A stretch of DNA of 64,000 bases from Actinomyces succiniciruminis (GTDB taxonomy: Bacteria; Actinomycetota; Actinomycetes; Actinomycetales; Actinomycetaceae). The notes below the pieces were generated by a model. That model was given only the letters and a program-made list of their open reading frames with translations, was not told the origin of the DNA and made no database searches. The stretch covers positions 34,400 through 98,399 of the forward strand of contig NZ_LK995540.1 in NCBI RefSeq assembly GCF_900002405.1. The letters run 5' to 3'. Of the stretch, positions 5,362-56,896 are shown piece after piece (the first letter of the stretch is position 1; each line of letters begins with the position of its first letter). The translations under genes were made by a program, and so were the position numbers.

Positions 5362-6885
5362 ATGAGTACCGAGAGGGAAGATGCTGCTATGGAGGACCCC
5401 CAGGTGGATGCTCCGGAACCCGACGACGCCGGGGCGGCGAGTGAGGCCAAGAAGCAGTCCCGGCCCGGCCGCTCCCGCAAACTGGTGCCGGCCCTGGTGC
5501 TGGTGACCGTGGCCGTGGCCGCGGCCGCCGTGACCTGGCTGCTGACCACGATCTTCGAGCACAAGCAGGAGTCGGCGGCCTCCTTCACCGAGGTGGTGGA
5601 GCTGACCGACACCTCCTACGACCCGGCCGTATGGGGGCAGAACTTCCCCATCCAGTACGAGCAGTACCTCAAGACCATCGAGGACACCGACGGCGACTTC
5701 ATCCCCGCAACCCCCACCGCCGATGATCCGCGCGAGTACCACACGCTGTCCCGGATCGAGTCCGAGACCCGCGCGCAGCGGATGTGGCGCGGATACGCCT
5801 TCGCGGTGGACTACACCGAGCCGCGCGGACACGAGTGGGCGCTGGCGGACCAGCGCTACACCGAGCGCACCGGCGAGCGCTTCAACCAGCCCGGCACCTG
5901 CCTGAACTGCCACGCCTCCATGCCCGAGGTCTATGACGAGCTGGGCGACGGCGACCGTGAGGCCGGCTTCCACGCCATGAACGCCATGAGCTACGACGAG
6001 GCCTATGAGCACGCCTCCTCCTCGATCGCCTGCATCGACTGCCACGACCCGCAGACGATGGAGCTGACCATCACCCGGCCCGCCTTCATCGACGGCATCC
6101 GCAAGGCCAAGGCCGCGGAGGGCGTGGAGGACTACGACGTCAACCGGGACGCCACCAACCAGGAGATGCGCACCTACGTGTGCGCCCAGTGCCACGTCGA
6201 GTACTACTTCGCCGGAGACTCCAAGACGCTGACCTTCCCGTGGGACAACGGTCTGACCGTCTACGACGCCATGGACTACTACGACGAGGTCGGCTGGACC
6301 GACTTCACCCACGAGGAGTCCGGCGCCGAGCTGCTCAAGGCACAGCACCCCGACTTCGAGACCTGGTCGCAGGGCATCCACGCCGCCAACGGAGTCACCT
6401 GCGCCGACTGCCACATGGCCTACAGCCGCGTAGGCGCGAACAAGGTCTCCAACCACCAGATCATGAGCCCGATGGCCAGCGACGAGACCATCAACGCCTC
6501 CTGCCTGACCTGCCACCACTCCACCGCGGACGAGATGCGCGAGCGGGTGGACGGCATCCAGACCCGCTGGCAGGAGTCGCTGAACGTCTCCTTCACTGCC
6601 CTGGATGCGCTGATCACCGACATCGCCGCGGCCGATGCGGACGGCAGCGCGTCGGCGGAGGAACTGGCCACCGCCCGCGACTACCAGCGCAAGGCGCAGT
6701 TCGTGATCGACTACTCCTTCTCCGAGAACGGCCGCGGCTTCCACGCCCCGGCGTACTCGATCTCCATCCTCAACCAGTCGACCGACTGGGCCCGCTCCGG
6801 GCAGTTGGCGCTGCGCGGCGTCGAGGTCGAGAACGGGATCGGCCCGGCCATCCCCGAGCAGCACATGCCGGACAGCGGCAACTGA
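5362..6885 (+). CDS. nrfA: NrfA, pentaheme cytochrome c nitrite reductase (ammonia-forming)
   Basis: 507-aa catalytic subunit for six-electron reduction of nitrite to ammonium on the outer face of the membrane. An uncleaved anchor helix lies at residues ~34-54. Five haem motifs are CLNCH (C180), CIDCH (C224), CAQCH (C274), CADCH (C347) and CLTCH (C381). The motif in the position of the catalytic haem is CxxCH, not the CxxCK of E. coli NrfA. Active-site neighbours are conserved: Arg in MWRGYAFAVDYTE, Tyr in CHVEYYF, and His in AQHPDFETWSQGIH. GAGGTGA precedes the ATG. The His-type motif should not need the NrfEFG lyase, consistent with the general System II genes downstream. Confidence 0.95.
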   Translation: MSTEREDAAMEDPQVDAPEPDDAGAASEAKKQSRPGRSRKLVPALVLVTVAVAAAAVTWLLTTIFEHKQESAASFTEVVELTDTSYDPAVWGQNFPIQYEQYLKTIEDTDGDFIPATPTADDPREYHTLSRIESETRAQRMWRGYAFAVDYTEPRGHEWALADQRYTERTGERFNQPGTCLNCHASMPEVYDELGDGDREAGFHAMNAMSYDEAYEHASSSIACIDCHDPQTMELTITRPAFIDGIRKAKAAEGVEDYDVNRDATNQEMRTYVCAQCHVEYYFAGDSKTLTFPWDNGLTVYDAMDYYDEVGWTDFTHEESGAELLKAQHPDFETWSQGIHAANGVTCADCHMAYSRVGANKVSNHQIMSPMASDETINASCLTCHHSTADEMRERVDGIQTRWQESLNVSFTALDALITDIAAADADGSASAEELATARDYQRKAQFVIDYSFSENGRGFHAPAYSISILNQSTDWARSGQLALRGVEVENGIGPAIPEQHMPDSGN

Positions 6886-6902
6886 CGGGGCGCGGGAACG
6901 GT

Positions 6903-7880
6903 ATGACCCAGGCGCAGGACAGCGCGGAGCAGCAAGCAGCAGGCACCGCCGACCAGCCGGATCGGGAGGCACTGGCGGCCTTCCTGGCCACCGCCCCGGA
7001 GGAGCTGAAGGGCTGGGCGGCCGCCCAGCTGGACGCGCTTCCGCCCACCGCCGAGGCAACGGGCGAGGCGGCCGGGAAGGCGGACGCGCCCGACGGCGGC
7101 ACCGCCCCCTCCGGGCCGGACGCGCAGGGCGACTCCGACTCCGACGTCGAGGCGGCGGCCGACGTCGAGGACCTGCTGGTCGACGACGACGATGCCGCCC
7201 CGCGGCCGCGGCGGAGTGCCTCGGCGGGGCGCGAGCGCACCCCCTCGGCGATTGAGCGCCGCACCGGCGTCTCCCGCCTGAACCTGGCGCTGGTGGCGCT
7301 GCTGGCCGCCGCCGTGGTCATCATCGTGCAGCAGGCGGGCCGGGGCGACGCCGCGAGCACGGCCCTGCCCGAAGGCCACCCGTCGGTCGCCGCCACGGCC
7401 GCGGCGAGCGCCGTCGCCGCCATGGATGAGGCCGAGCCGGTGGACGCCGAACGGGAGGCGGAGCTCCAGGCGCAGGCCGAGGCTGACCCCGAGGACATCG
7501 AGTCCCGCCAGGAGCTGGGCGTCATGTACCTGAAGGCGGCCCTCTACCAGGACTCCATCACCTGGCTGCAGCAGATCCTCGACCTCGACCCGGACAACCT
7601 CGACGCCCTGCTGACCATCGGCGTGGCCGAGTACCAGTCCAACCAGTACGAGGAGGCCGAGACGCACTGGCTGCGCGCCTCCGAGATCGATCCGGAGGTG
7701 GCCGAGCCCTGGTACAACCTCGGCTTCCTGTACATGGCCCGCACCCCGCCCGACGCCGAGCGGGCCAACCAGTGCTGGGAGAAGGTGCTCCAGCTCGCCC
7801 CCGACTCGGAGATGGCCGCCAACGTCCGCGGCCACGTGACCACCATGGGATCGGCCACCGCGACGCCGAGCGCGGGGTGA
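6903..7880 (+). CDS. Membrane-anchored TPR protein of the nrf/cytochrome maturation operon
   Basis: Predicted 325-aa protein with an acidic, low-complexity cytoplasmic N-terminal ~115 residues, one membrane helix near 122-140 (LNLALVALLAAAVVIIVQQ), and an outer-face domain of at least three tetratricopeptide repeats (DIESRQELGVMYLKAALYQ, NLDALLTIGVAEYQSNQYE, AEPWYNLGFLYMA). NrfG and the C-terminal part of CcmI/CcmH are TPR proteins that hold apocytochrome c for haem ligation, so a chaperone role for NrfA/NrfH is a reasonable inference. The start at 6903 is 17 nt after nrfA; the reading frame is open upstream only as a shadow of nrfA. Confidence 0.75.
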   Translation: MTQAQDSAEQQAAGTADQPDREALAAFLATAPEELKGWAAAQLDALPPTAEATGEAAGKADAPDGGTAPSGPDAQGDSDSDVEAAADVEDLLVDDDDAAPRPRRSASAGRERTPSAIERRTGVSRLNLALVALLAAAVVIIVQQAGRGDAASTALPEGHPSVAATAAASAVAAMDEAEPVDAEREAELQAQAEADPEDIESRQELGVMYLKAALYQDSITWLQQILDLDPDNLDALLTIGVAEYQSNQYEEAETHWLRASEIDPEVAEPWYNLGFLYMARTPPDAERANQCWEKVLQLAPDSEMAANVRGHVTTMGSATATPSAG

Positions 7881-11725: not shown

Positions 11726-11738
11726 CCCTCCTTCTCTC

Positions 11739-11774
11739 ACCGAGGTCGGTTGATCTTACGTGCCGAGGTCGGTT
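11739..11774 (+). repeat. Family A 23-bp repeat, two units
   Basis: Two tandem units with the core CCGAGGTCGGTTG and a TTACGTG linker lie 14 bp after the thioredoxin gene. The same unit recurs inverted at 16881-16945 and directly at 56726-56815. Confidence 0.8.
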
Positions 11775-11806: not shown

Positions 11807-11935
11807 GGAATGTCCAGATTCGGCACGAACGGTGCCGGCCGTGTCAGCGGCCGCGAACAAAACGTTGAAATCATGCGGATGCCGCATCAGACTGCATCCG
11901 CATCGACGCCGTTAATGCCGAATGTGGACATTTCC
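11807..11935 (+). repeat. Family B ~120-bp inverted-repeat element, copy 1
   Basis: The ends GGAATGTCC and GGACATTTCC are inverted. The arms extend inward as TGTCCAGATTCGGCACGAAC against GTTAATGCCGAATGTGGACA. An inner perfect stem is ATGCGGATGC / GCATCCGCAT, next to the family-conserved AACGTTGAAAT. This is the most divergent of the four copies. No coding gene is seen inside. Confidence 0.8.
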
Positions 11936-16729: not shown

Positions 16730-16985
16730 CAGTGGGAGCCGGGGTTGCCGTGCCGCTGTTGGCTGATGTCGCGGCTTCGGTGCAGGTGCGCGATGGGCGG
16801 CGCGCTCCTGGGGTGGCCGCCGCCGGGTAGCTGCGCCTGCGCGAACGGGATGACTTCGGCGTTTCATGGTGCTGCTGCCATATCGACCGACCTCGGTGCG
16901 TAACTTCCACCGACCTCGGCACGTAACTTCCGCCGACCTCGGCGTGTGGGGGCGGGGGCACAAGCGGCTTCGCAAGTCGGTGCGC
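16730..16985. other. Non-coding stretch carrying an inverted family A repeat
   Basis: No convincing gene. Family A 23-bp units lie on the minus strand at about 16881-16945: three copies of CCGACCTCGG separated by GTAACTTCC linkers, ending in the same GTCGATATGG sequence that ends the copy at 56815. Confidence 0.7.
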
Positions 16986-26443: not shown

Positions 26444-26463
26444 GCCTGGAACCACCCTGTCCT

Positions 26464-26532
26464 CTGCTGCGAGCTGTTGCGCCCTGATCCGATGGGTATA
26501 CCCGCACACCAGGGTGCAAAAGCTCGTAGCAG
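26464..26532 (+). repeat. Family C palindromic element, copy 1
   Basis: The outer arms are 23 bp with three mismatches, beginning CTGCTGCGAGCTGTTGCG and ending AAAAGCTCGTAGCAG. At the centre is the perfect palindrome GGGTATACCC. A near-identical copy lies at 29703-29771 in the same orientation. Confidence 0.9.
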
Positions 26533-26627
26533 GACGCAAAGTGTCGGGGTACATCCGAAGGTGGTGGAAACGCCCGCGTGTGCCGGTGAGTTGCCAGGTA
26601 CACTACGGTGAGTTCGGACTAGTCCCG

Positions 26628-29680: not shown

Positions 29681-29702
29681 CGCAGGAACACGCCCTTTAC
29701 CT

Positions 29703-29771
29703 CTGCTGCGAGCTTTTGCGCTCTGATCCGATGGGTATGCCCGCACACCAGGGTGCAAAAGCTCGCAGTAG
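29703..29771 (+). repeat. Family C palindromic element, copy 2
   Basis: It differs from copy 1 at about five of 74 aligned bases. In this copy the left arm reads GAGCTTTTGCG, pairing better with AAAAGCTC on the right, while the centre is GGGTATGCCC. Same orientation as copy 1. Confidence 0.9.
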
Positions 29772-29841
29772 GAGACAGGGGGTCGGCACAGGCGTTGAAC
29801 CCTGTGATGTCCAGGAGGCCGGCCTCGCCGTCGTCGGCGGG

Positions 29842-39580: not shown

Positions 39581-40633
39581 TCACTGGTGTCCGTAGGGGC
39601 CGGACTGCTGGCCGTAGGGCGGCTGGCCGGGCTGGTACTGCTGCGGGTTGCCGTAGCCGGGCTGGCCGGGCTGGTACTGCTGCGGGTTGCCGTAGCCGGG
39701 CTGCTGCGGCTGTACGCCGGGAGCCTGCTGGCCATAAGGCTGCCGCGCGCCATAACCCGGCTGGCCGTAGGGCGGCTGACCGGGCTGCTGGTAAGACTGG
39801 GCCGGGTATCCGGTGGGGTATCCGGTGGCCGAGACGGCGTGCTTCTTCTGGTTCTGGTAGACGACGACGCCAACCACGACACCGACGATCGCTAGCAGGC
39901 CCACGAGGCCGAGAATGACCGGCAGCAGCGAATGCCCGTCGTCGGAGTCGGCACTGGCGGGTGCCGCAACCGCTTCGCTCGTGGGAGTGGGTGTCGCGTC
40001 CCCGGTGGCAGGAGACGGCGCGTCGGTGGGCTCCGCGGAGGCGGAGGGGCTGGGCGTGGCCGGATCGGCGGTGTCCCAGCCGGTCGCCTGGAGGGAGTTG
40101 AGCGCGGCGATATCCTCCCAGTCGGCCTTGTGGCCGGAGATGGTGGCGTTCTCGTCGGCTTCGATGACGTCGCCGGGGAAGGTGAGCGTCATGGTGGCGG
40201 AGTCGTAGTCGCTGAAATCTGTGAGACTGGCGATCTCGACGATATATGTGTTGTCCTGGTGCTTAATCTTGAAGTCGTCGTCGGTGAATCCGATGATGGG
40301 GATTCCGGCCATTGTCAGGATGCAGCTGTTGTCCTCGGTAGAGAGCGTAACGTCGACATCATCATCGGCGTCGTCAATGGCCTTGAGGTCATCGAGCTCC
40401 AGAAAGTCCTCTGTGCAATAAACATCGGGTGTCAAGTTGTCGAAGCTCATGTTCAGGGTCATGTCCACGGTTTTGTTCTCGTGCAGCTCGAGGTCCAAAT
40501 GGGCTGCGGCATACACGCCGTCGTTGTTGTCGGCGACGGCGGCGGGACCCACGAGTGCGGAGCCGAGCAGTAGCGAGGAGCCGGCCACTGCGGCGCCGGC
40601 GCGGCGCAGGGTGGCGGGGGAGAGGATGCTCAT
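39581..40633 (-). CDS. LppM-like envelope protein with Pro/Gly/Gln/Tyr repeat tail
   Basis: Predicted 350-aa secreted protein: signal peptide, an extracytoplasmic domain with two Cys (VYCTEDF, SCILTM) and the strand ATMTLTFPGDVIEADENA, a Pro/Ser/Thr linker, a membrane helix near 230-255 (LLPVILGLVGLLAIVGVVV), and a cytoplasmic tail of PGQPGYG-type repeats. The head resembles the LppM/DUF3153 family of actinobacterial envelope proteins. TACACT lies 6 nt before the ATG on the minus strand, identical to the site of the next paralogue. The repeat tail is of the sort found in actinobacterial proteins that bind partners through low-complexity contacts. Confidence 0.65.
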   Translation of the reverse strand: MSILSPATLRRAGAAVAGSSLLLGSALVGPAAVADNNDGVYAAAHLDLELHENKTVDMTLNMSFDNLTPDVYCTEDFLELDDLKAIDDADDDVDVTLSTEDNSCILTMAGIPIIGFTDDDFKIKHQDNTYIVEIASLTDFSDYDSATMTLTFPGDVIEADENATISGHKADWEDIAALNSLQATGWDTADPATPSPSASAEPTDAPSPATGDATPTPTSEAVAAPASADSDDGHSLLPVILGLVGLLAIVGVVVGVVVYQNQKKHAVSATGYPTGYPAQSYQQPGQPPYGQPGYGARQPYGQQAPGVQPQQPGYGNPQQYQPGQPGYGNPQQYQPGQPPYGQQSGPYGHQ

Positions 40634-40729
40634 GCCGGGAGTGTACGGAACCTTCTGGGCGGCGGCCTAGAGCCGGTCTGGGAGGTGGCCGCTTAAGCGC
40701 CGCCGAAGGATCGACGGGCACGACATAGG

Positions 40730-40769
40730 GCGACGCCCACGCGTCCGGTGCCGGGCGCGTGGGCGTCGC
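40730..40769 (-). terminator. Terminator of the second envelope-protein gene
   Basis: GCGACGCCCACGCG and CGCGTGGGCGTCGC form a perfect 14-bp stem with a 12-nt loop, 11 bp downstream of the minus-strand stop at 40781. Confidence 0.75.
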
Positions 40770-40780
40770 GAGGCGTTTGC

Positions 40781-41662
40781 TCAGTGCTGCGCGTTGGGGT
40801 CTACGGGCGGCTGGTACTGCTGCGGGTTGCCGTAGCCGGACTGGCCGGGCTGCTGTGGCTGGGCGCCGTAACCCGGCTGCTGACCGTAGGGCTGCTGCGG
40901 CTGGGCGCCGTAACCCGGCTGGCCGGGCTGCTGCGGTTGGGCCGGGTATCCGGCCCCGGGGTAGCCGACGGCCGGGGCGGGCTTCTTCCGGCTCCGGGAG
41001 ACGATGAAGGCGATGACGCCGGCAACCACCAGGAGCGCCACCACGACGAGCACGATCCAAATGGCCGAGCTCTTGCCGGCCGAGTCCTTGCCGACCGCCC
41101 GGATGGTACCTGCGTCGGTCAGGTCGTCCCAGGTGACCTTGTTGCCATCGATCTTGGCGCTGTCATCGGCTTCGGTGACCTTGCCGGGGAAGGTGACGGA
41201 AATGGAGATCGAGCTGAGGTAGTCGCCGGCGTCCCCCAAGTCGCCGAAGTCGACGATGTACTCGTCGCCCTCGTGCGTGATCGGGGAGTCGGAGCTGTCA
41301 AGGGCGTCAAGAGAGGCGCCGGTGACGGTCAGGGTGCAGGAGTCGTCCTGGGCGGCGACGTCGAGCTTGGCTTCGTCACCGAGTTCCGCGATGTCGTCGT
41401 CACTGATGCCGCTGAGCTCCAGCATGTCCTCGGTGCAGTAGAGGCTGGGGTCGATGCCGTCGATTCCCGTCGATATGGACATGTCGATGACCTCGTCCTC
41501 GTGGAGCACGAGGTCGAGGCTCATGCTTGCTGAGAGTCCGTAGAGGTCGTCGTTATCGTCGGCGATCGCGGTGGGGCCGAGGAGGGCAGAGCCAAGCAGC
41601 AGCGCGGAGCCGGCCACTACGGCGCCCGCGCGGTGCAGGGAGTTGGGGAAGAGGTTGTTCAT
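40781..41662 (-). CDS. LppM-like envelope protein, paralogue 2
   Basis: Predicted 293-aa paralogue of the preceding gene, with the same order of parts: signal peptide (AGAVVAGSALLLGSALLG), a two-Cys head (LYCTEDM, SCTLTV), the FPGKVTEADDSA strand, a membrane helix (AIWIVLVVVALLVVAGVIA), and a PQQPGQPGYG repeat tail. It lacks the long Ser/Thr linker of paralogue 1. The ATG at 41662 follows TACACT by 7 nt; the bases around the box (TTCCGTACACTCC) match paralogue 1, so promoter and gene were duplicated together. Confidence 0.65.
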   Translation of the reverse strand: MNNLFPNSLHRAGAVVAGSALLLGSALLGPTAIADDNDDLYGLSASMSLDLVLHEDEVIDMSISTGIDGIDPSLYCTEDMLELSGISDDDIAELGDEAKLDVAAQDDSCTLTVTGASLDALDSSDSPITHEGDEYIVDFGDLGDAGDYLSSISISVTFPGKVTEADDSAKIDGNKVTWDDLTDAGTIRAVGKDSAGKSSAIWIVLVVVALLVVAGVIAFIVSRSRKKPAPAVGYPGAGYPAQPQQPGQPGYGAQPQQPYGQQPGYGAQPQQPGQSGYGNPQQYQPPVDPNAQH

Positions 41663-41712
41663 GCCCCGGAGTGTACGGAAGCACCCCACCTCCGGCAACA
41701 AAACGATGACGT

Positions 41713-42510
41713 TCAGTGGCGCCGCGAACGGTGCCGCCACAGTGCGGCCGCGCCCACCGCCGCGCCGGTGACCGCCACCCCTGCCACGATCCAGGTTCCG
41801 TAGCGGTCCCAGGCCGACACGCCTGCACCCGCCTGCGCTCGCCCGGACGCGCTCACGCCGTCGTACAGCAGGTCGGCGTCCTCCCAGGTGACGGTGGTGC
41901 CCTTCACGGTGCCGCCGCCGGCGTCCACGACGGCGCCCGGGAAGGTGATCGACAGACGGGCGTCCACCACCGTGTTCAGTGACTCCGACGACCCAGACGG
42001 CTCAGACGTGGACTCCGCGGTGGCGGCCTGCGTGGGATCGGTCGCCGCGGTGGCGGCGGCATCCGCATCCTCCTGAGCATCGTTGGCGGCGAGTGCGCCC
42101 CCGACACCGGCGATGTGCACCACGTACAGGTCCCCGTCGCGAACCACCAGCTGTTCCGATGCGGCATCCTCGGCGTCGGCGTCGGGGATGGGCACGCCGG
42201 TGACGTGCACCTCGCAGCCCAGTCCCTCGGCGTCGTCGGCGGAACCGATCGGGGAGGCGGTAACCGTCGCGCCGGTGCCGGAGCCGATCAGCGAGTCGGC
42301 GGCGAGGCTCTCACAGTCGGCGCCGTCGGTGAAAACCGTGCCGGTGGTGTCCCGCATGACCAGGTCGACGGCGTAGGTGCCGGCCGCATCCAGGCGCATG
42401 TCCATGTGGGCGGTGCAGCCGGACAGCGCCAGTGCGGCCGCGCCCACCGTGATCGCGAGGCGGTGGGCGAGTGCGCGTTTGCGGCGGTCGGCGAGTGGCT
42501 TCGGAGGCAC
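41713..42510 (-). CDS. LppM-like lipoprotein, divergent paralogue 3
   Basis: Predicted 265-aa lipoprotein (signal ending LSGC). Shared with the two neighbours are a D-C-E-S type Cys in the head (GADCESL), a second Cys (GLGCEVHV), the ARLSITFPGAVVDAGGGTVKG strand, a VTWEDADLL segment matching VTWDDLTDA, and one C-terminal helix. It has a lipobox instead of a plain signal and lacks the repeat tail. The start is GTG 42510 with TAGCGT 6 nt upstream. Its stop is 50 bp from the start of paralogue 2. Confidence 0.62.
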   Translation of the reverse strand: MPPKPLADRRKRALAHRLAITVGAAALALSGCTAHMDMRLDAAGTYAVDLVMRDTTGTVFTDGADCESLAADSLIGSGTGATVTASPIGSADDAEGLGCEVHVTGVPIPDADAEDAASEQLVVRDGDLYVVHIAGVGGALAANDAQEDADAAATAATDPTQAATAESTSEPSGSSESLNTVVDARLSITFPGAVVDAGGGTVKGTTVTWEDADLLYDGVSASGRAQAGAGVSAWDRYGTWIVAGVAVTGAAVGAAALWRHRSRRH

Positions 42511-42668: not shown

Positions 42669-44519
42669 ATGACAGTGTCTGAGCAGGATGTCCGGGCGGC
42701 TGCACCGGCCAACGCCCCCGAGGACGTCATTGCCTTCGCCGTCCGCCTCGCCGAGCTCGGCAAGCCGGAGGACGTTTACTTCTGCGACGGCTCCGAGGAG
42801 GAGTGGGACCGCCTGACCACCGAGATGGTCGAGTCGGGCATGTTCATCCGCCTCAACCCGGAGAAGCGCCCCAACTCCTTCCTGGCGCGTTCGCTGCCCA
42901 GCGACGTCGCCCGCGTTGAGTCCCGCACCTTCATCTGCTCCGAGAAGGAGGAGGACGCCGGGCCGACCAACAACTGGTACGACCCGACCGAGATGAAGAA
43001 GATCCTCAACGAGAAGTTCGACGGCACCTACGCCGGCCGCACGATGTACGTGATCCCCTTCTCCATGGGTCCGCTCGGCGGTCCGATCTCCCAGCTGGGC
43101 ATCGAGATCACCGACTCCCCGTACGTCGTGGCCAACATGCGCATCATGACTCGCATGGGCGCCAAGGCCATGGACCTCATCAACGAGGGTCGCACCTGGG
43201 TTCCCTGTGTGCACTCCGTGGGCGCCCCGCTGGCCCCCGGCCAGGAGGACACCACCTGGCCGTGTAACGAGGAGAAGTACATCACCCAGTTCCCGGAGAC
43301 CAACGAGATCTGGTCCTACGGCTCCGGTTACGGCGGCAACGCCCTGCTGGGCAAGAAGTGCTACGCGCTGCGCATCGCCTCAACCATGGCCCGCCGCGAC
43401 GGCTGGATGGCCGAGCACATGCTGATCCTGCGCCTGACCGACGAGAAGTCCGGCAAGCAGTACCACGTGACCGCCGCCTTCCCGAGCGCCTGCGGCAAGA
43501 CCAACCTCGCCATGCTCCAGCCGACCATCCCCGGCTACAAGGTCGAGACCGTCGGCGACGACATCGCCTGGATGCGTCCCGGCGAGGACGGCCGCCTGCG
43601 CGCCATCAACCCCGAGGCCGGCTTCTTCGGCGTCGCCCCCGGCACCGCCTACACCACCAACCCGGTGGCCATGGACACCATGAAGGCGAACACCATCTTC
43701 ACCAACGTCGCCCTGACCGATGACGGCGACGTCTGGTGGGAGGGCATCGACGCCGAGCTGCCCGACCACCTGATTGACTGGCAGGGCAACGACTACACGC
43801 CCGCCGACGCCGCCGCCGGTAAGAAGGCCGCGCACCCGAACTCGCGTTTCACCACGCCCGCTTCGCAGTGCCCGATCATCTGCCCCGACTGGGAGGCCCC
43901 CGAGGGCGTCCCGATCGACGCCATCCTGTTCGGTGGCCGGCGCGCCACCAACGTGCCGCTCGTGGCCGAGCAGTACAGCCCCGCCCACGGCGTCTTCATC
44001 GGCTCCTCCGTGGCCTCTGAGGTCACCGCCGCCGCCACCGACGTCAAGGCCGGCTCGCTGCGCCACGACCCCTTCGCCATGCTGCCCTTCTGCGGCTACC
44101 ACATGGCCGACTACTGGGGCCACTGGCTGGAGATGCAGGAGAAGCTGGGCGACAAGTTCCCGAAGGTCTACCAGGTCAACTGGTTCCGTAAGGACGAGAA
44201 CGGCAAGTTCCTGTGGCCCGGCTACGGCGACAACTCCCGCGTGCTCGACTGGATCGTGCGCCGCGCCGCCGGTGAGGTCGACGCGATCGAGGGCGTGACG
44301 GGTCTGTACCCGAAGTTCGAGGACTTCAACCTCGATGGCCTGGACGTCGACGAGTCCGTCTGGAACAAGATGTACGACATCGACCCCGACGCCTGGGCCG
44401 TCGAGATGGACAGCACCGAGGAGTACTACGAGCAGTTCGGCGACAAGGTCCCGGCTGCCCTCCGCGAGGAGCTGGCCAAGTTCCGCGAGCGCATCGCCGC
44501 TGCCAAGGCCAACGCCTGA
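42669..44519 (+). CDS. pckG: Phosphoenolpyruvate carboxykinase (GTP)
   Basis: 616-aa enzyme interconverting oxaloacetate and PEP with GTP/GDP; it can run in the anaplerotic direction in anaerobes. The P-loop with the hyper-reactive Cys is [13 protein letters not shown] near residue 272. The kinase-2/metal site is [11 protein letters not shown], and [12 protein letters not shown] is the GTP-type signature. AAGAAGGA precedes the ATG. A perfect hairpin follows the stop. Confidence 0.97.
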
Positions 44520-44623: not shown

Positions 44624-44742
44624 TGTCCAGAATCGGCACGAACGCCCCTCCCTCCCGCCGACGGCGAACCATGATCGGCATCATTTCAACGTTACGCACC
44701 CGGCCGCTCCGCGCCCGCAGGGCGTTTATGCCGATTTTGGAC
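44624..44742 (-). repeat. Family B ~120-bp inverted-repeat element, copy 2 (inverted)
   Basis: The ends are TGTCCAGAATCGGCACGAAC and GTTTATGCCGATTTTGGAC. On the minus strand it carries the family core AACGTTGAAATGATGCCGAT. Its right end contains the last codons and stop of the opposing DUF559 gene. Confidence 0.9.
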
Positions 44743-45607
44743 GTTTTCTGCTGTGTGATCGGTTTCCTGCGGCGAGGAGCTGGTGGATCTCCGCGCCTAC
44801 CTTGCCCAGCTCCACGTCCTTGCGAGTGAATCGGGCTACCCGGTAGCCCTGTTTGATCAGTTCGCGGTCCCGGGTGCGGTCCCGGGCGAACTGGAACTCA
44901 TCCTCGTGGTATGTGTAGCCGTCCAGTTCCAGCACCAGCCATCCCGCGACCAGCAGGTCGACTTCCCCCACCCTGGGAATGTCCACGCCGTCCACGAAGG
45001 GAATTCCGGCGTCGTGCAGCTGCAGACGTGCCAGCGTCTCCAGGGGTGAGCGGGCTCTTGGACTGGCCAGGGCCAGACGTCCTCGGGCTTGAACCGAACC
45101 CGGACCGCGCAGCAGTGTGGCGACCGCCTCTGCCGATGTGTGCCCCTGGTGCAGCGCCGCATCGCAGGCCATTAGGGGCCCTTCACGGCTAGGGGCGCAC
45201 CGCAGGTAGAGGGCCAGCATTAGTGGTACCGGCGCCACCGGGAACTGGGCCAAGGGCGGCAGCTCAAGACCGCTTTCGACATGCAGCACCTCGCCCCGGA
45301 GCGGGGCTCGATTCGAGGTGTGGGGGACTGCCAGGTGGACGGGTGCCCATAGGCGCGGTCGGGGATAGCCGTAGTGCTTCACGGCGTGCAGGCAGGTGAT
45401 CAGCCCGCCATGGACGCGTGCCAGGATCAGGTCCCAGCCCGCGCCGGGTAGAGCCACCACTCCGTGTGGGTAGGCGAACAGGGCGCGAGCCTCGACTAGC
45501 TTCTGGGCATGGCGCCGCTCTGTGCGGTCCAGGCCCAGATCCCGCAGCCGCACGGCGCCGTGGCAGGCCCGTACCCGCGCCAGAATGTCGTCGTCGCACT
45601 GTCTCAT
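44726..45607 (-). CDS. DUF559-type endonuclease-like protein with N-terminal winged helix
   Basis: Predicted 293-aa protein. The C-terminal ~100 residues form a DUF559/Vsr-like domain: SPLETLARLQLHDAGI, VGEVDLLVAGWLVLELDG with acidic residues, and a YRVARFTRKDV strand. The N-terminal half (DDDILARVRACHGAVRLRDL) resembles the winged helix of AbiEi-like antitoxin proteins. The ATG at 45607 follows CAGCCT by 7 nt; an open frame further upstream merely translates repeat B copy 3. The last residues and stop codon lie inside repeat B copy 2. Function unknown; nuclease activity not established for this branch. Confidence 0.7.
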   Translation of the reverse strand: MRQCDDDILARVRACHGAVRLRDLGLDRTERRHAQKLVEARALFAYPHGVVALPGAGWDLILARVHGGLITCLHAVKHYGYPRPRLWAPVHLAVPHTSNRAPLRGEVLHVESGLELPPLAQFPVAPVPLMLALYLRCAPSREGPLMACDAALHQGHTSAEAVATLLRGPGSVQARGRLALASPRARSPLETLARLQLHDAGIPFVDGVDIPRVGEVDLLVAGWLVLELDGYTYHEDEFQFARDRTRDRELIKQGYRVARFTRKDVELGKVGAEIHQLLAAGNRSHSRKRPKSA

Positions 45608-45719
45608 GGTTCCGAGGCTGCCCTGGGCGAGCGCTAGCACGCCAACGGCCCCAACGAGCTCTGTGGATTCACCCTGCACGAACTCGACCTGTGGGTACCG
45701 GTGACTATCGTCGGCGCGA

Positions 45720-45841
45720 TTGTCCAAGAACGGCATAAACGCCCTGCGGGCGCGGAACGGCCGGGTGCGAAACGTTGAAATGACGCCGATCGTGATTCGC
45801 CGTCGGCGGGCGGGAGGGGCGTTCGCGCCGATTTTGGACAA
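45720..45841 (+). repeat. Family B ~120-bp inverted-repeat element, copy 3
   Basis: TTGTCCAAGAACGGCATAAA is inverted as TTCGCGCCGATTTTGGACAA; the 25-bp arms match at about 20 positions. Core GAAACGTTGAAATGACGCCG. Very similar to copy 4, including ~30 bp outside its right end. Confidence 0.92.
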
Positions 45842-46306
45842 TTTGCCGACTGTGCGGAGGCAATCCAGGGAGCTCGACGGCGGTGATCCCGGGGTGAGGA
45901 TGGTGATTGCACCGGATCCGGTGGGGCACCCGAGGAGACATCGGCTGTAACGCCCGGTTCCTCTGGGCTTCTGGGGCCCTGGGGCAGAAGGTCAGCTGGG
46001 GAGCATTCCTGCTCCGGTACGGGGACGGCCTCAAGTGGACCGTCGCGGTTGAGCCGGACATCGACCTGGGCGGTGGGGCCTGGCTGACACGCTGGTGCCA
46101 TACGGTCAGTGCGCCGCTGGTGGGGTCGGCATCCTGGCCGGGGAGGAGAACGATGGCATCGTCGTCCTCATGACGGGCGACGTCGCTAGCGAGGTGGCAG
46201 TAGCGCTGAGCTGGAGTGCGGGTGGCGGGGTGAGACTTGTAGGCACGTCGCTTGCTGCGGCGAAGGTGCCCTTCACGGATGTGAACCGTCGCGATAGTGT
46301 AGTGAT
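45842..46306. other. 465-bp stretch without a recognisable intact gene
   Basis: Two short overlapping plus-strand frames (45907-46173 and 46095-46316) could be remnants of one frameshifted gene; neither matches anything I recognise. TAGTGT at 46295-46300 is a good -10 box for the following gene. Confidence 0.45.
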
Positions 46307-48232
46307 GTGCACGTAATATTGTTTGAAATGGCCTATTGGTACCGGCGCGCCCGCCAGACTCGGGCGAGTAAACGAAGCGTAGGAAGGTCCGGCGGCTTTG
46401 AGACCGACGGGAGGTCGGACGCCGCGCTACGGCATGAAGAAGGAATGCGTGGTCGCGAGGAGGCCGGCTCGTTGTCAGATGCTGGACTCCGGCGTTCTGG
46501 GCAGAGTGATGTTGCGGAAGGTCGCACTAAGGATGCTGAGCATGCTACGCAGGAGGCTGATACGGATATTTCCGCAGTCGGTGCGGAAGCAGATGGACCT
46601 GCGCGCGACAAGAAGAACAAGAAGTTCCGGGGGTACCGGCCTGTCAGTGAAGTTGGCGGAAGAATGCAGCCAGGTTACTATACTATGTTACTGGTGACGG
46701 CATTCATGTCAGTGACGATGGCGCTGGGGATCTGCGTGCTGGTACTCATGCCTGTGTCTGGTGGCTCGCTCTCCGCAAGTAGCATTGATGGACTCATTAG
46801 TTGTCTGCGCCGCTCGGAGGTGCAGGAGACCTTACTGGGGCTCGAAGGCATCATCGCCGGGCTGACGGTGACGCTGGCGGCACTGTCCTGGGTAAGGAAA
46901 AGCCGTCCCGACGACCCGCGCTACTGGCGTGCCTGGCTGAATGATGTGTTTGATGACGCGCGGCGCGAGGAGATCTCGCTAGCGATGATGATGGTGCTTG
47001 CGGCACTGTTTGGTGCCGTGGCGTGGCTGTACCTGGTGGGCGTGTGGCCGACCGGCGGTGTGGAGGAACCCACATATGGTGGTTTTGTCTGTGGAGCGGT
47101 ACTGGTCGTGGTCGCAGGCCTAGTCGGTTTTCTGCCCTATGTCCAGGTGAGTGGTGAGAGCGGAAGACTTAGGGCCTACGCGGAGACGCTTCAAGGGCTG
47201 GTCGCATTCGCACGGTGGTGGATGGCGGTCTCTGACGAGGCTGGTGATTGTGGTGACAGTGGCGAAAGTAGTGGCACACGAGTACGGGAGTGGCTGCCGG
47301 TGAGCATTGCTTGCGGGCTGCTGGCTGCGGCGGTGGTCGTCGTCGTGATGATTTTGTCTGGAGCGGGCGGCCTCCAAGGGATGGTTATGATGATTGGTGC
47401 ATTCGTTGTCAATGCAATTACCGGGACCTTTGCTGTCTACTCGACAATCCCCTGCATTCCCGGAGTTATTATGTGGAAACGTGGCGCCAGATTGAATATG
47501 TGGGTTGTCTTTGCTGTAGGTTCACTTATTGCTTTCATGTACAACCTGCTATTATTGGTGGTCGCGATTGTGTCCATCCGAGGGGAGAGTGTGGGTGGCC
47601 TTCAAAAGATTGCTCTTGCGGTGTTGCTCGCCCCAGTTCCATGGGAAATTGTCTTGGCGGTATATCTGTCGCGGGGCTACCGGATTCCACTCCTGCGGCG
47701 GGTGGGTGCAAGGACTGTCCGAAATAAGAGGGCGTCTCTGCAGAGGTCGTGCCGGTACTACTTTGCGGCAGACTCGGAACCGGATGCCGGCATCAACGAC
47801 GAGGATATGACTGTGATCGCCGACATCCTCCTGCCTAGGCGCAGCGTGCTGGTGCTTCCCTCTGGTGAACGGAGTTGCTCTGACTCGTCTGCCGGAGGGC
47901 GGGAAGGTCTGCGTGAGGAGCCGGTGGCGCGCAAGCATGGCAAGAGCAAGTCGATGCCAAGAGGCTCTTCTAGTCGCTGGCGGCAGCGCGTTGACTTCTG
48001 CGAGCCTGCTGGCGGTTCTGACGAAACAGGCTCCGGGGCTGGGGTCGCTGGACGTCGTATGAAGGACCGTTCTTCGAAGAAGAACCCAGGTAGCGGTCCT
48101 GCCGACTTTGACCGCTCCGAGCCGCAGCCGGACGCGCGGGGTCGCGTCAACGCCCGGGATTACATTGAACAGCTCTTCGAGATCACGCTGTCGACGGCGT
48201 GTACGTATCGGCCCGGTCCTGATGCTCCCTGA
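46307..48232 (+). CDS. Unknown polytopic membrane protein of lower GC content
   Basis: Predicted 641-aa protein. Residues 1-120 are hydrophilic and disordered-looking. About eight membrane helices follow at ~124-150, 178-196, 223-246, 258-280, 330-352, 359-388, 397-424 and 434-454. The C-terminal ~185 residues are basic and Ser/Arg rich. Codons use A and T in third positions far more than the neighbours, suggesting recent acquisition. The GTG start is supported by TAGTGT 6 nt upstream (leaderless type); ATG 46328 is an alternative. It lies between family B copies 3 and 4. I do not recognise the family. Confidence 0.6.
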   Translation: MHVILFEMAYWYRRARQTRASKRSVGRSGGFETDGRSDAALRHEEGMRGREEAGSLSDAGLRRSGQSDVAEGRTKDAEHATQEADTDISAVGAEADGPARDKKNKKFRGYRPVSEVGGRMQPGYYTMLLVTAFMSVTMALGICVLVLMPVSGGSLSASSIDGLISCLRRSEVQETLLGLEGIIAGLTVTLAALSWVRKSRPDDPRYWRAWLNDVFDDARREEISLAMMMVLAALFGAVAWLYLVGVWPTGGVEEPTYGGFVCGAVLVVVAGLVGFLPYVQVSGESGRLRAYAETLQGLVAFARWWMAVSDEAGDCGDSGESSGTRVREWLPVSIACGLLAAAVVVVVMILSGAGGLQGMVMMIGAFVVNAITGTFAVYSTIPCIPGVIMWKRGARLNMWVVFAVGSLIAFMYNLLLLVVAIVSIRGESVGGLQKIALAVLLAPVPWEIVLAVYLSRGYRIPLLRRVGARTVRNKRASLQRSCRYYFAADSEPDAGINDEDMTVIADILLPRRSVLVLPSGERSCSDSSAGGREGLREEPVARKHGKSKSMPRGSSSRWRQRVDFCEPAGGSDETGSGAGVAGRRMKDRSSKKNPGSGPADFDRSEPQPDARGRVNARDYIEQLFEITLSTACTYRPGPDAP

Positions 48233-48390
48233 GTGCGGATGCGCTCATCCTGGGTGATGCGGTGCCTGCGGCGCGCGGTATCGACGAGAGCCCGGAGGTG
48301 GCCCGGCGGATGGGCCTGTGGGGTGGTGAGATGAAGCCGTCGACGCCCGAGCGACCGTTAGCGGGCGCCCGAGCCCCGGACCGTACTCGC
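48233..48390 (+). pseudogene. Possible gene remnant before repeat B copy 4
   Basis: A frame with coding-like content runs from 48223 (LSADALILGDAVPAARGIDE and RRMGLWGGEMKPS) straight into repeat B copy 4. It has no start of its own and no recognised match. This may be the tail of a gene cut by rearrangement; the call is weak. Confidence 0.25.
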
Positions 48391-48518
48391 AAACTGTCCA
48401 AGAACGGCATAAACGCCCTGCGGGTGCGGAGCGGCCGGGTACGAAACGTTGAAATGACGCCGATCGTGATTCGCCGTCGGCGGGAGGGAGGGGCGTTCGC
48501 GCCGATTCTGGACAGTTT
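48391..48518 (+). repeat. Family B ~120-bp inverted-repeat element, copy 4
   Basis: Ends AAACTGTCC and GGACAGTTT are perfectly complementary over 9 bp. The interior is almost identical to copy 3. The end base pair is C-G here, T-A in copy 3 and A-T in copy 1. Confidence 0.92.
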
Positions 48519-48621
48519 GCCGACTGTGCAGAGACAATCCACGGAACTCAACAGCGGCGACGCCGCCGACGGATTAGGTGGGCGCCTTGTGTCAAGACAC
48601 CTGGGCGGCTAGCGTGGTCGC

Positions 48622-53718: not shown

Positions 53719-54295
53719 GCCGATCGGTTCTTCCGCCTGCACGTCCAGTCGCTGCGGCGGTCAGCGGCGCGTCTGCGCGTCGGACCTGCGCGGGGGGAGC
53801 GTGTGTGCACTCCGCGGCATCATGTGCGCAGTGGCGGTGTCGCGTGTGCAGCGGGGCCGGATGACGCACCCGAGGGAGGGGCACCCGCGGCGTGCGGGTG
53901 TCATGGATTGCACCACTTTACCCGTTTGTCTGATGCCCGTGACTGACTATGGTCGCGGAATTGCGCGGTTCTTGTGAAGCCTGGGCGGCGCTGACCGGCG
54001 AAAGTGGTGCATTCTGTGCCAGGTGCGGCGCAGCCAGGACCGTCACCCGCCGACGTTGCGCGGCAGGAGGGGCGGGTCTCGTAGCGTGTCGTCCAGATCC
54101 GCCGAACGCATGAGTTCCCCTTACGCACACGAGTCTTGGAGCTTTGCCGGTGTTTAGCGCGTTTATTACTCCGAATCTCGTGTGTCTGGCGACAATGCAC
54201 GCGTATGTACCTAGTGCGCGTGCGTGACACGGTCACAGGTGATGGCTTGCGCTCCGCGCCTCGCCCGTCACCGCCCGCGGTGGCAGGATGGGGGC
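53719..54295. other. 577-bp intergenic stretch between purD and purC
   Basis: No convincing gene on either strand. TGCACCACTTT (53909-53919) is exactly inverted at 54001-54011, enclosing 81 bp. GTGAC-ACG-GTCAC at 54224-54236 is a short palindrome that may be an operator for purC. CAGGAT 6 nt before the purC ATG is a probable -10 box. Base composition between 53900 and 54240 is lower in G+C than the surroundings. Confidence 0.55.
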
Positions 54296-56725: not shown

Positions 56726-56815
56726 TGCGCGAGATCGGCGGCAGTTTCGCGCCGAGGTCGGCGGTAGTTACGCGCCGAGGTCGGTAGAAGTTACGTGCCG
56801 AGGTCGGTCGATATG
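56726..56815 (+). repeat. Family A 23-bp repeat, four tandem units
   Basis: Units start at 56726, 56749, 56772 and 56795. The consensus is GCGCCGAGGTCGGTNGNAGTTAC. The first unit is the most diverged; the last ends GTCGATATGG, as does the inverted copy near 16880. Confidence 0.9.
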
Positions 56816-56896
56816 GCGGCCTAAGCGATTCACACGGACGCGGCCGGGTAGGCTGGGCCTGGACTCGCTCCCGCCCGACCGCATCCAGGAGGACCG

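Follow-up and report, generated by a model that had tools for sequence, protein, structure and literature searches.

A DUF559 nuclease gene of Actinomyces and the 120-bp palindrome-ended elements that flank it appear to have evolved together

Introduction

Among described systems, the closest likeness to the locus reported here is found in the repetitive extragenic palindromic (REP) sequences and their REP-associated tyrosine transposases (RAYT), where the gene encoding the enzyme lies between two cognate palindromic repeats, further copies are dispersed, and the lineages of enzyme and repeat are correlated (PMC2817692, PMC3116915, PMC8266576). The locus in question is a nuclease gene lying between 120-bp elements with inverted arms in a 64,000-nucleotide stretch of Actinomyces succiniciruminis (contig NZ_LK995540.1, positions 34,400 to 98,399), referred to below as the window; its genome (Actinomyces-like, 3.33 Mb) is denoted G000. 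In arrangement the locus resembles RAYT/REP, but it does not belong there, since enzyme type and repeat type were both looked for and neither was found. RAYT enzymes are HUH tyrosine transposases, whereas the protein here is predicted to combine an AbiEi-like half with a Vsr/EDxHD nuclease, and Pfam Transposase_17 (HUH tyrosine transposase) matched none of 21 members of the nuclease family. REP sequences are 20-40-bp repeats with a GTAG (GT(A/G)G) head, whereas the elements here are 120-150 bp long, their 21-bp arms are separated by about 78 bp, and those of 120 bp have TGTC...GACA ends. Also in contrast to RAYT/REP, in most loci the copies on the two sides are direct repeats, not always inverted ones.

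Other described systems resemble single parts of the locus. The EDxHD/Vsr-like homing endonucleases (I-Bth0305I) and DUF559/MTES_1575 proteins share with it a predicted catalytic fold, together with acidic and histidine residues that are invariant. EDxHD homing enzymes dimerise on targets nearly 60 bp long (PMC3943268); unlike them, the nuclease domain here is fused to a putative AbiEi-like half and linked to dispersed elements, and none was seen in an intron or intein. With the AbiEi antitoxins (type IV toxin-antitoxin system AbiE) and Rv2827c, the likeness lies in residues 3-182, which are predicted to fold into a winged helix and a second domain. The inverted repeats bound by AbiEi proteins measure 23 bp (PMC7319586), near the roughly 21 bp of the arms here, but the present protein has a nuclease domain of its own, the two arms are separated by about 78 bp where AbiEi sites have 3-4 bp, and no AbiEii nucleotidyltransferase toxin gene was seen among its annotated neighbours in this window, namely phosphoenolpyruvate carboxykinase (PEPCK), a 641-aa open reading frame (ORF) and isochorismatase. 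The miniature inverted-repeat transposable elements (MITEs) of DDE transposases are likewise short, non-coding, dispersed repeats with terminal inverted repeats, whereas the elements described here show no target duplications, have a fixed length of 120 bp, and accompany a nuclease gene instead of a transposase gene.

Elements flanking the nuclease gene

In the window, the nuclease gene (44726..45607, minus strand, 293 aa), recognised by Pfam, an AlphaFold2 (AF2) model and structural matches, lies between copy 2 of the element (44624..44743, minus strand, covariance model E 1.7e-16), which is its downstream element and overlaps its 3' end, and copy 3 (45721..45840, plus strand, E 9.5e-20), which is its upstream element. 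Copy 2 is inverted relative to copy 3 and to copy 4 (48395..48514, plus strand, E 6.1e-18), and the covariance model giving these scores was built in part from the same copies. The first listed in-frame start of the nuclease ORF falls within copy 3; alignments favour the ATG at 45607, which is separated from copy 3 by 113 bp, and the spacing in A. ruminis is identical.

Homologues of the nuclease were drawn from relatives and from named genomes, giving 26 close-family Actinomyces loci. An element was present at all 26, upstream in 21/26, downstream in 22/26 and on both sides in 17/26, and its length was exactly 120 bp at 25/26 loci, the remaining locus (L099) having elements of 128/129 bp. Positions were near-constant: about 100-220 bp separated the end of the upstream element from the start codon, and the downstream element began no more than about 50 bp from the stop codon. 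In a sequence-blind test of the flanks, nuclease loci were positive on either side in 18/20 cases and on both sides in 12/20, versus 15/300 and 0/300 for random 850-bp intervals. Paralogues at 34-48% identity often had associated elements too, differing in arms and length (on either side in 9/15), and in genome G015 three paralogue-associated elements had wholly different arms and an identical core. Across Actinomyces, the elements and this nuclease belong together and track each other in sequence.

Structure of the element

An alignment of 42 elements was gapless over 120 columns; the ends did not vary, and the asymmetric core around GAATCATGCGG varied hardly at all. Each arm is roughly 21 bp long, and compensated changes on both sides, by which the pairing was kept, were found in 16/20 arm pairs. 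An RNA-hairpin reading was considered and rejected: with the elements oriented by their core, G-T and A-C mismatches in the arms were about equal (60 vs 75), giving no sign of one-strand selection for RNA pairing. In addition, Rfam gave no above-chance match to the element on element-bearing loci, the matches being tRNAs and sub-threshold overlaps with tRNAs.

Elements of 121 bp, with arms TGTCCAGATGGGACGACTTTG or TGTCCACGGTGAACAACTTTAA and core GCTCTGACC, were also observed at L262:2880-3000, at matching places in L264-L267, and at L074:7992-8112. Those of L262 and L264-L267 are similar to the elements next to the nuclease paralogues of L299, L301 and L304.

Variation of the arms with nuclease lineage

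The arms differ by nuclease lineage, as in TGTCCAAATCGGAGACAAAGG, TGTCAATTCTGCTGCCGTCGA and TGTCCGTCAGAATGACATTGG. The difference between the upstream and downstream arms of one locus was 9%, versus 47% between loci, and paralogues in the same genome had arms differing by 34-54%. Protein distance and arm distance were correlated (Mantel r 0.81, permutation p 0.0005; r 0.79 for the winged-helix part and 0.67 for the nuclease part), with shared ancestry uncorrected. Concerted change of the two arms of an element was seen at orthologous sites of the A. oris/naeslundii group. The element ends and the nuclease seem to have coevolved, suggestive of a partnership between nuclease and repeat not described before.

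Predicted structure of the nuclease

The protein is predicted to consist of an AbiEi-like DNA-binding half and a Vsr/EDxHD homing-endonuclease domain. The window nuclease exceeds the cut-off of DUF559 (Pfam PF04480, E 2e-5), in agreement with the first-pass annotation of the window, and both MTES_1575 and DUF559 matched 21/21 aligned members, with AbiEi_4 matching 3. In the AF2 model (mean pLDDT 90), residues 185-283 resemble the Vsr/EDxHD fold (I-Bth0305I, Z 11.6; NGO0050, Z 11.3; Vsr, Z 9.5), and the residues E190, E215, D217, E227, D229, H234 and D243 in this half were invariant. Residues 3-182 were AbiEi-like with moderate support (6y8q, Z 7.5; Foldseek E 9e-4), the first Foldseek match being Rv2827c. 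The AbiEi-like N terminus proposed in that annotation was also backed by homologues, on one of which PADLOC calls AbiEi and on which Pfam gave AbiEi-like matches. Neither the window nuclease nor the 641-aa protein was matched by PADLOC or NCBIfam.

Copy number and distribution

In G000, 51 distinct elements were found with the covariance model, of which 34 are exactly 120 bp long, and they are dispersed over the genome. Among genomes G000-G022, elements were present in 17/17 genomes with the nuclease vs 2/6 without it (Fisher p 0.0017, genomes treated as independent), and one of these two, G009, retains a nuclease remnant. The covariance model had no match in 16 genomes of other genera of the order. 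In Miniimonas arenae, a DUF559 gene lies between elements of 148 and 149 bp whose arms read CTTTGACTGGTC..., and that genome has similar sequences at about 20 other places. In a class-wide sample of DUF559 loci, a repeat common to both flanks was found at 6/17 loci vs about 7% in controls, some of the matches being short and uncertain. No description of this high-copy Actinomyces repeat was found in the open literature searched.

Rearrangement of the nuclease cassette and repeats containing the element

The nuclease cassette of G000 is reversed relative to its sisters G012 and G014 at the same genomic place, while in G005 the cassette is missing at that place and a short palindrome of two arms is found instead. 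The reversal and the absences in sisters fit inversion between inverted elements and the gain or loss of intervals, in line with what the first-pass annotation had supposed for copies 3 and 4.

Larger repeats containing the element were also observed. A MITE-like unit of about 660-690 bp, with ends CTGTGTTGTCTCATGACTTCTGAGA, the 120-bp element inside and target duplications of about 14 bp, is polymorphic between two species (L188:4270-4926 and 6677-7360 in G010; L203:7313-8008 in G007). Copies of the 690-bp MITE without the internal element were sought, and every full copy found contains it. Repeats of about 300 bp, with ends resembling GGCTCTTCCGGTTTG and the 120-bp element in the middle, show a recent expansion in G000 (contigs L308, L312, L316, L319, L321, L322, L324, L327 and L330).

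The 641-aa gene and other features of the window

The segment lies downstream of the PEPCK gene (42669-44519), which precedes copy 2; the first-pass annotation had described it as accessory and partitioned by three elements, with a possible role in defence or competition. The three elements bounding the nuclease gene and the 641-aa gene were recovered, all at 120 bp and well beyond chance (E 2e-16 to 1e-19). Copies 3 and 4 are direct repeats, as had been described, with a common stretch of 171 bp (91%), the flank of copy 3 (45841..45891, plus strand) being a duplicate of that of copy 4 (48515-48565). They flank the interval holding the stretch at about 45890-46300, where that annotation had placed possible gene remnants, and the 641-aa, GC-poor, membrane-protein-like ORF (46307..48232, plus strand; recognised by ORF, composition and diverged homologues), and the isochorismatase gene follows copy 4. 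The unusual composition of this ORF also stood, with a GC of 0.55-0.63 in 500-bp windows vs about 0.66-0.75 around it.

The 641-aa gene is absent from the three sister genomes G005, G012 and G014, and together with the loss of the nuclease cassette in one sister and its reversed orientation relative to two, this bears out the accessory nature of the segment; conserved presence with normal composition was not found in relatives. Homologues at 24-32% identity were found in nine other genomes of the genus. A search of the genome contigs with the 641-aa protein gave no match. The family is fast-evolving, and its genes are GC-poor relative to their surroundings and lie in varied neighbourhoods, usually with no elements nearby; one is likewise downstream of PEPCK (G011, L065). 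In L071, L073 and L078, 641-aa-like genes with a third-position GC of about 0.5 occupy one conserved place in a polysaccharide-type cluster (third-position GC >0.9). The most fitting view of the 641-aa gene is that it belongs to a separate accessory family and came to lie, as a passenger, between the direct-repeat copies 3 and 4.

Elsewhere in the window, a solo element (copy 1, 11811..11930, plus strand, E 2.8e-19) has an orthologue in G012; synteny comparison revealed none at the matching position in G014 and G005. A possible decayed element gave a weak covariance-model match (53899..54021, minus strand, E 0.017). An inverted-repeat family on ACCGACCTCGGCACGTAACTT, distinct from the 120-bp elements, is present at 11726-11773, 16874-16956 and 56750-56820. 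An 87-bp direct repeat with inverted ends (89% identical) lies at 26461-26547 and 29700-29786. At 39581-42510 there are three neighbouring minus-strand ORFs resembling LppM-type proteins, possibly duplicates, of which one has a Pfam LppM match and two have common proline/glutamine-rich tails.

Discussion

The explanation preferred here, to which we give an even chance, is a two-part system of a nuclease gene and 120-bp elements whose arms would be the recognition sites of the nuclease, the whole persisting through cutting and repair. The AbiEi-like half would bind the inverted arms, and the Vsr/EDxHD half would cut DNA at or near the element. With element copies on both sides of the gene and solo copies scattered over the chromosome, cutting at elements followed by host repair would copy, convert and rearrange them. 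Nuclease and repeats may thereby be maintained as a pair, in the manner of RAYT transposases and REP palindromes, with an unrelated enzyme. What speaks for it is the recurrence of elements beside the gene and their fixed length, arms that correlate with the nuclease and changed in concert at an orthologous site, the joint occurrence of the two parts across genomes, the predicted nuclease fold with its invariant residues, and the cassette reversed relative to sister species. Somewhat more tentative, at a little under even, is the broader proposal of a new genome-resident selfish system, present in several actinobacterial genera and evolved independently of transposases, in which AbiEi-EDxHD nucleases would recognise palindrome-ended elements of fixed length as their own, cut them and propagate them, with an arm sequence particular to each nuclease lineage.

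Several observations weigh against this explanation. The AbiEi match is moderate (Z 7.5), and known AbiEi sites are only 3-4 bp apart; the correlation between arms and protein may in part reflect shared ancestry; and genome G013 has elements while no nuclease was detected in it. Target duplications were absent, 109 elements showing no excess over shuffled flanks, either at the ends or with shifts of up to 6 bases, although decay could have erased old ones. Between two close species a single clean 120-bp filled/empty site came to light, while several other elements compared between two close species were shared by descent, and the recently multiplied copies examined sit within the larger MITE-like units. 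Given these last four observations, nuclease-driven spread of the elements is no more than plausible, as judged from sequence comparison.

It is possible, but unlikely, that the elements are operators through which the protein represses its own gene, with dispersed copies as a regulon or decoys, the nuclease domain acting elsewhere and element movement being incidental. AbiEi and Rv2827c do autoregulate through 23-bp inverted repeats (PMC7319586), and an element lies about 100-220 bp ahead of most starts, but operators account poorly for an equally regular element at the stop codon in 22/26 loci, for about 51 copies per genome, and for nuclease residues that remain invariant. Still less likely, the elements would be ordinary non-autonomous transposable elements of another transposase, with the nuclease gene as a frequent hitchhiker or as composite cargo bounded by two copies. 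Their terminal inverted repeats and the nesting of copies in larger MITE-like units are what such elements would show; the lack of target duplications, arms that follow the nuclease lineage, flanking elements at every close-family locus, and the recurrence of the architecture in another genus with unrelated arms are not. Host domestication, with the elements as chromosome-structure or repair sites read by the nuclease and kept for the benefit of the cell, is improbable: entire genomes of the genus are without the system and, at one and the same site, sisters have either lost the cassette or carry it inverted, even though element length is fixed and different species share many elements at orthologous positions. 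That the nuclease and the 641-aa membrane protein together form an island for defence or competition, as patchy distribution, the AbiEi-like half and a GC-poor, fast-evolving membrane-protein family could suggest, is very improbable, as the two genes occur independently, 641-aa homologues stand alone in varied neighbourhoods, and PADLOC has no match for either window protein.

The earlier description of the segment is therefore partly supported: its accessory nature stands, a defence role as the main reading does not, and the nuclease-repeat partnership had been overlooked, so that the emphasis moves to the nuclease and the palindromic elements, cognate to it, that are dispersed in the genome.

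Pfam still lists the DUF559 family as 'protein of unknown function'. If cognate elements do lie both beside these genes and dispersed over the genome, the DNA target of a DUF559 protein would be readable from sequence and directly testable. The system would then be a second, unrelated arrangement of an enzyme with dispersed palindromes after RAYT/REP, in which a nuclease replaces the transposase, and a repeat present in many copies in Actinomyces genomes would have an explanation.

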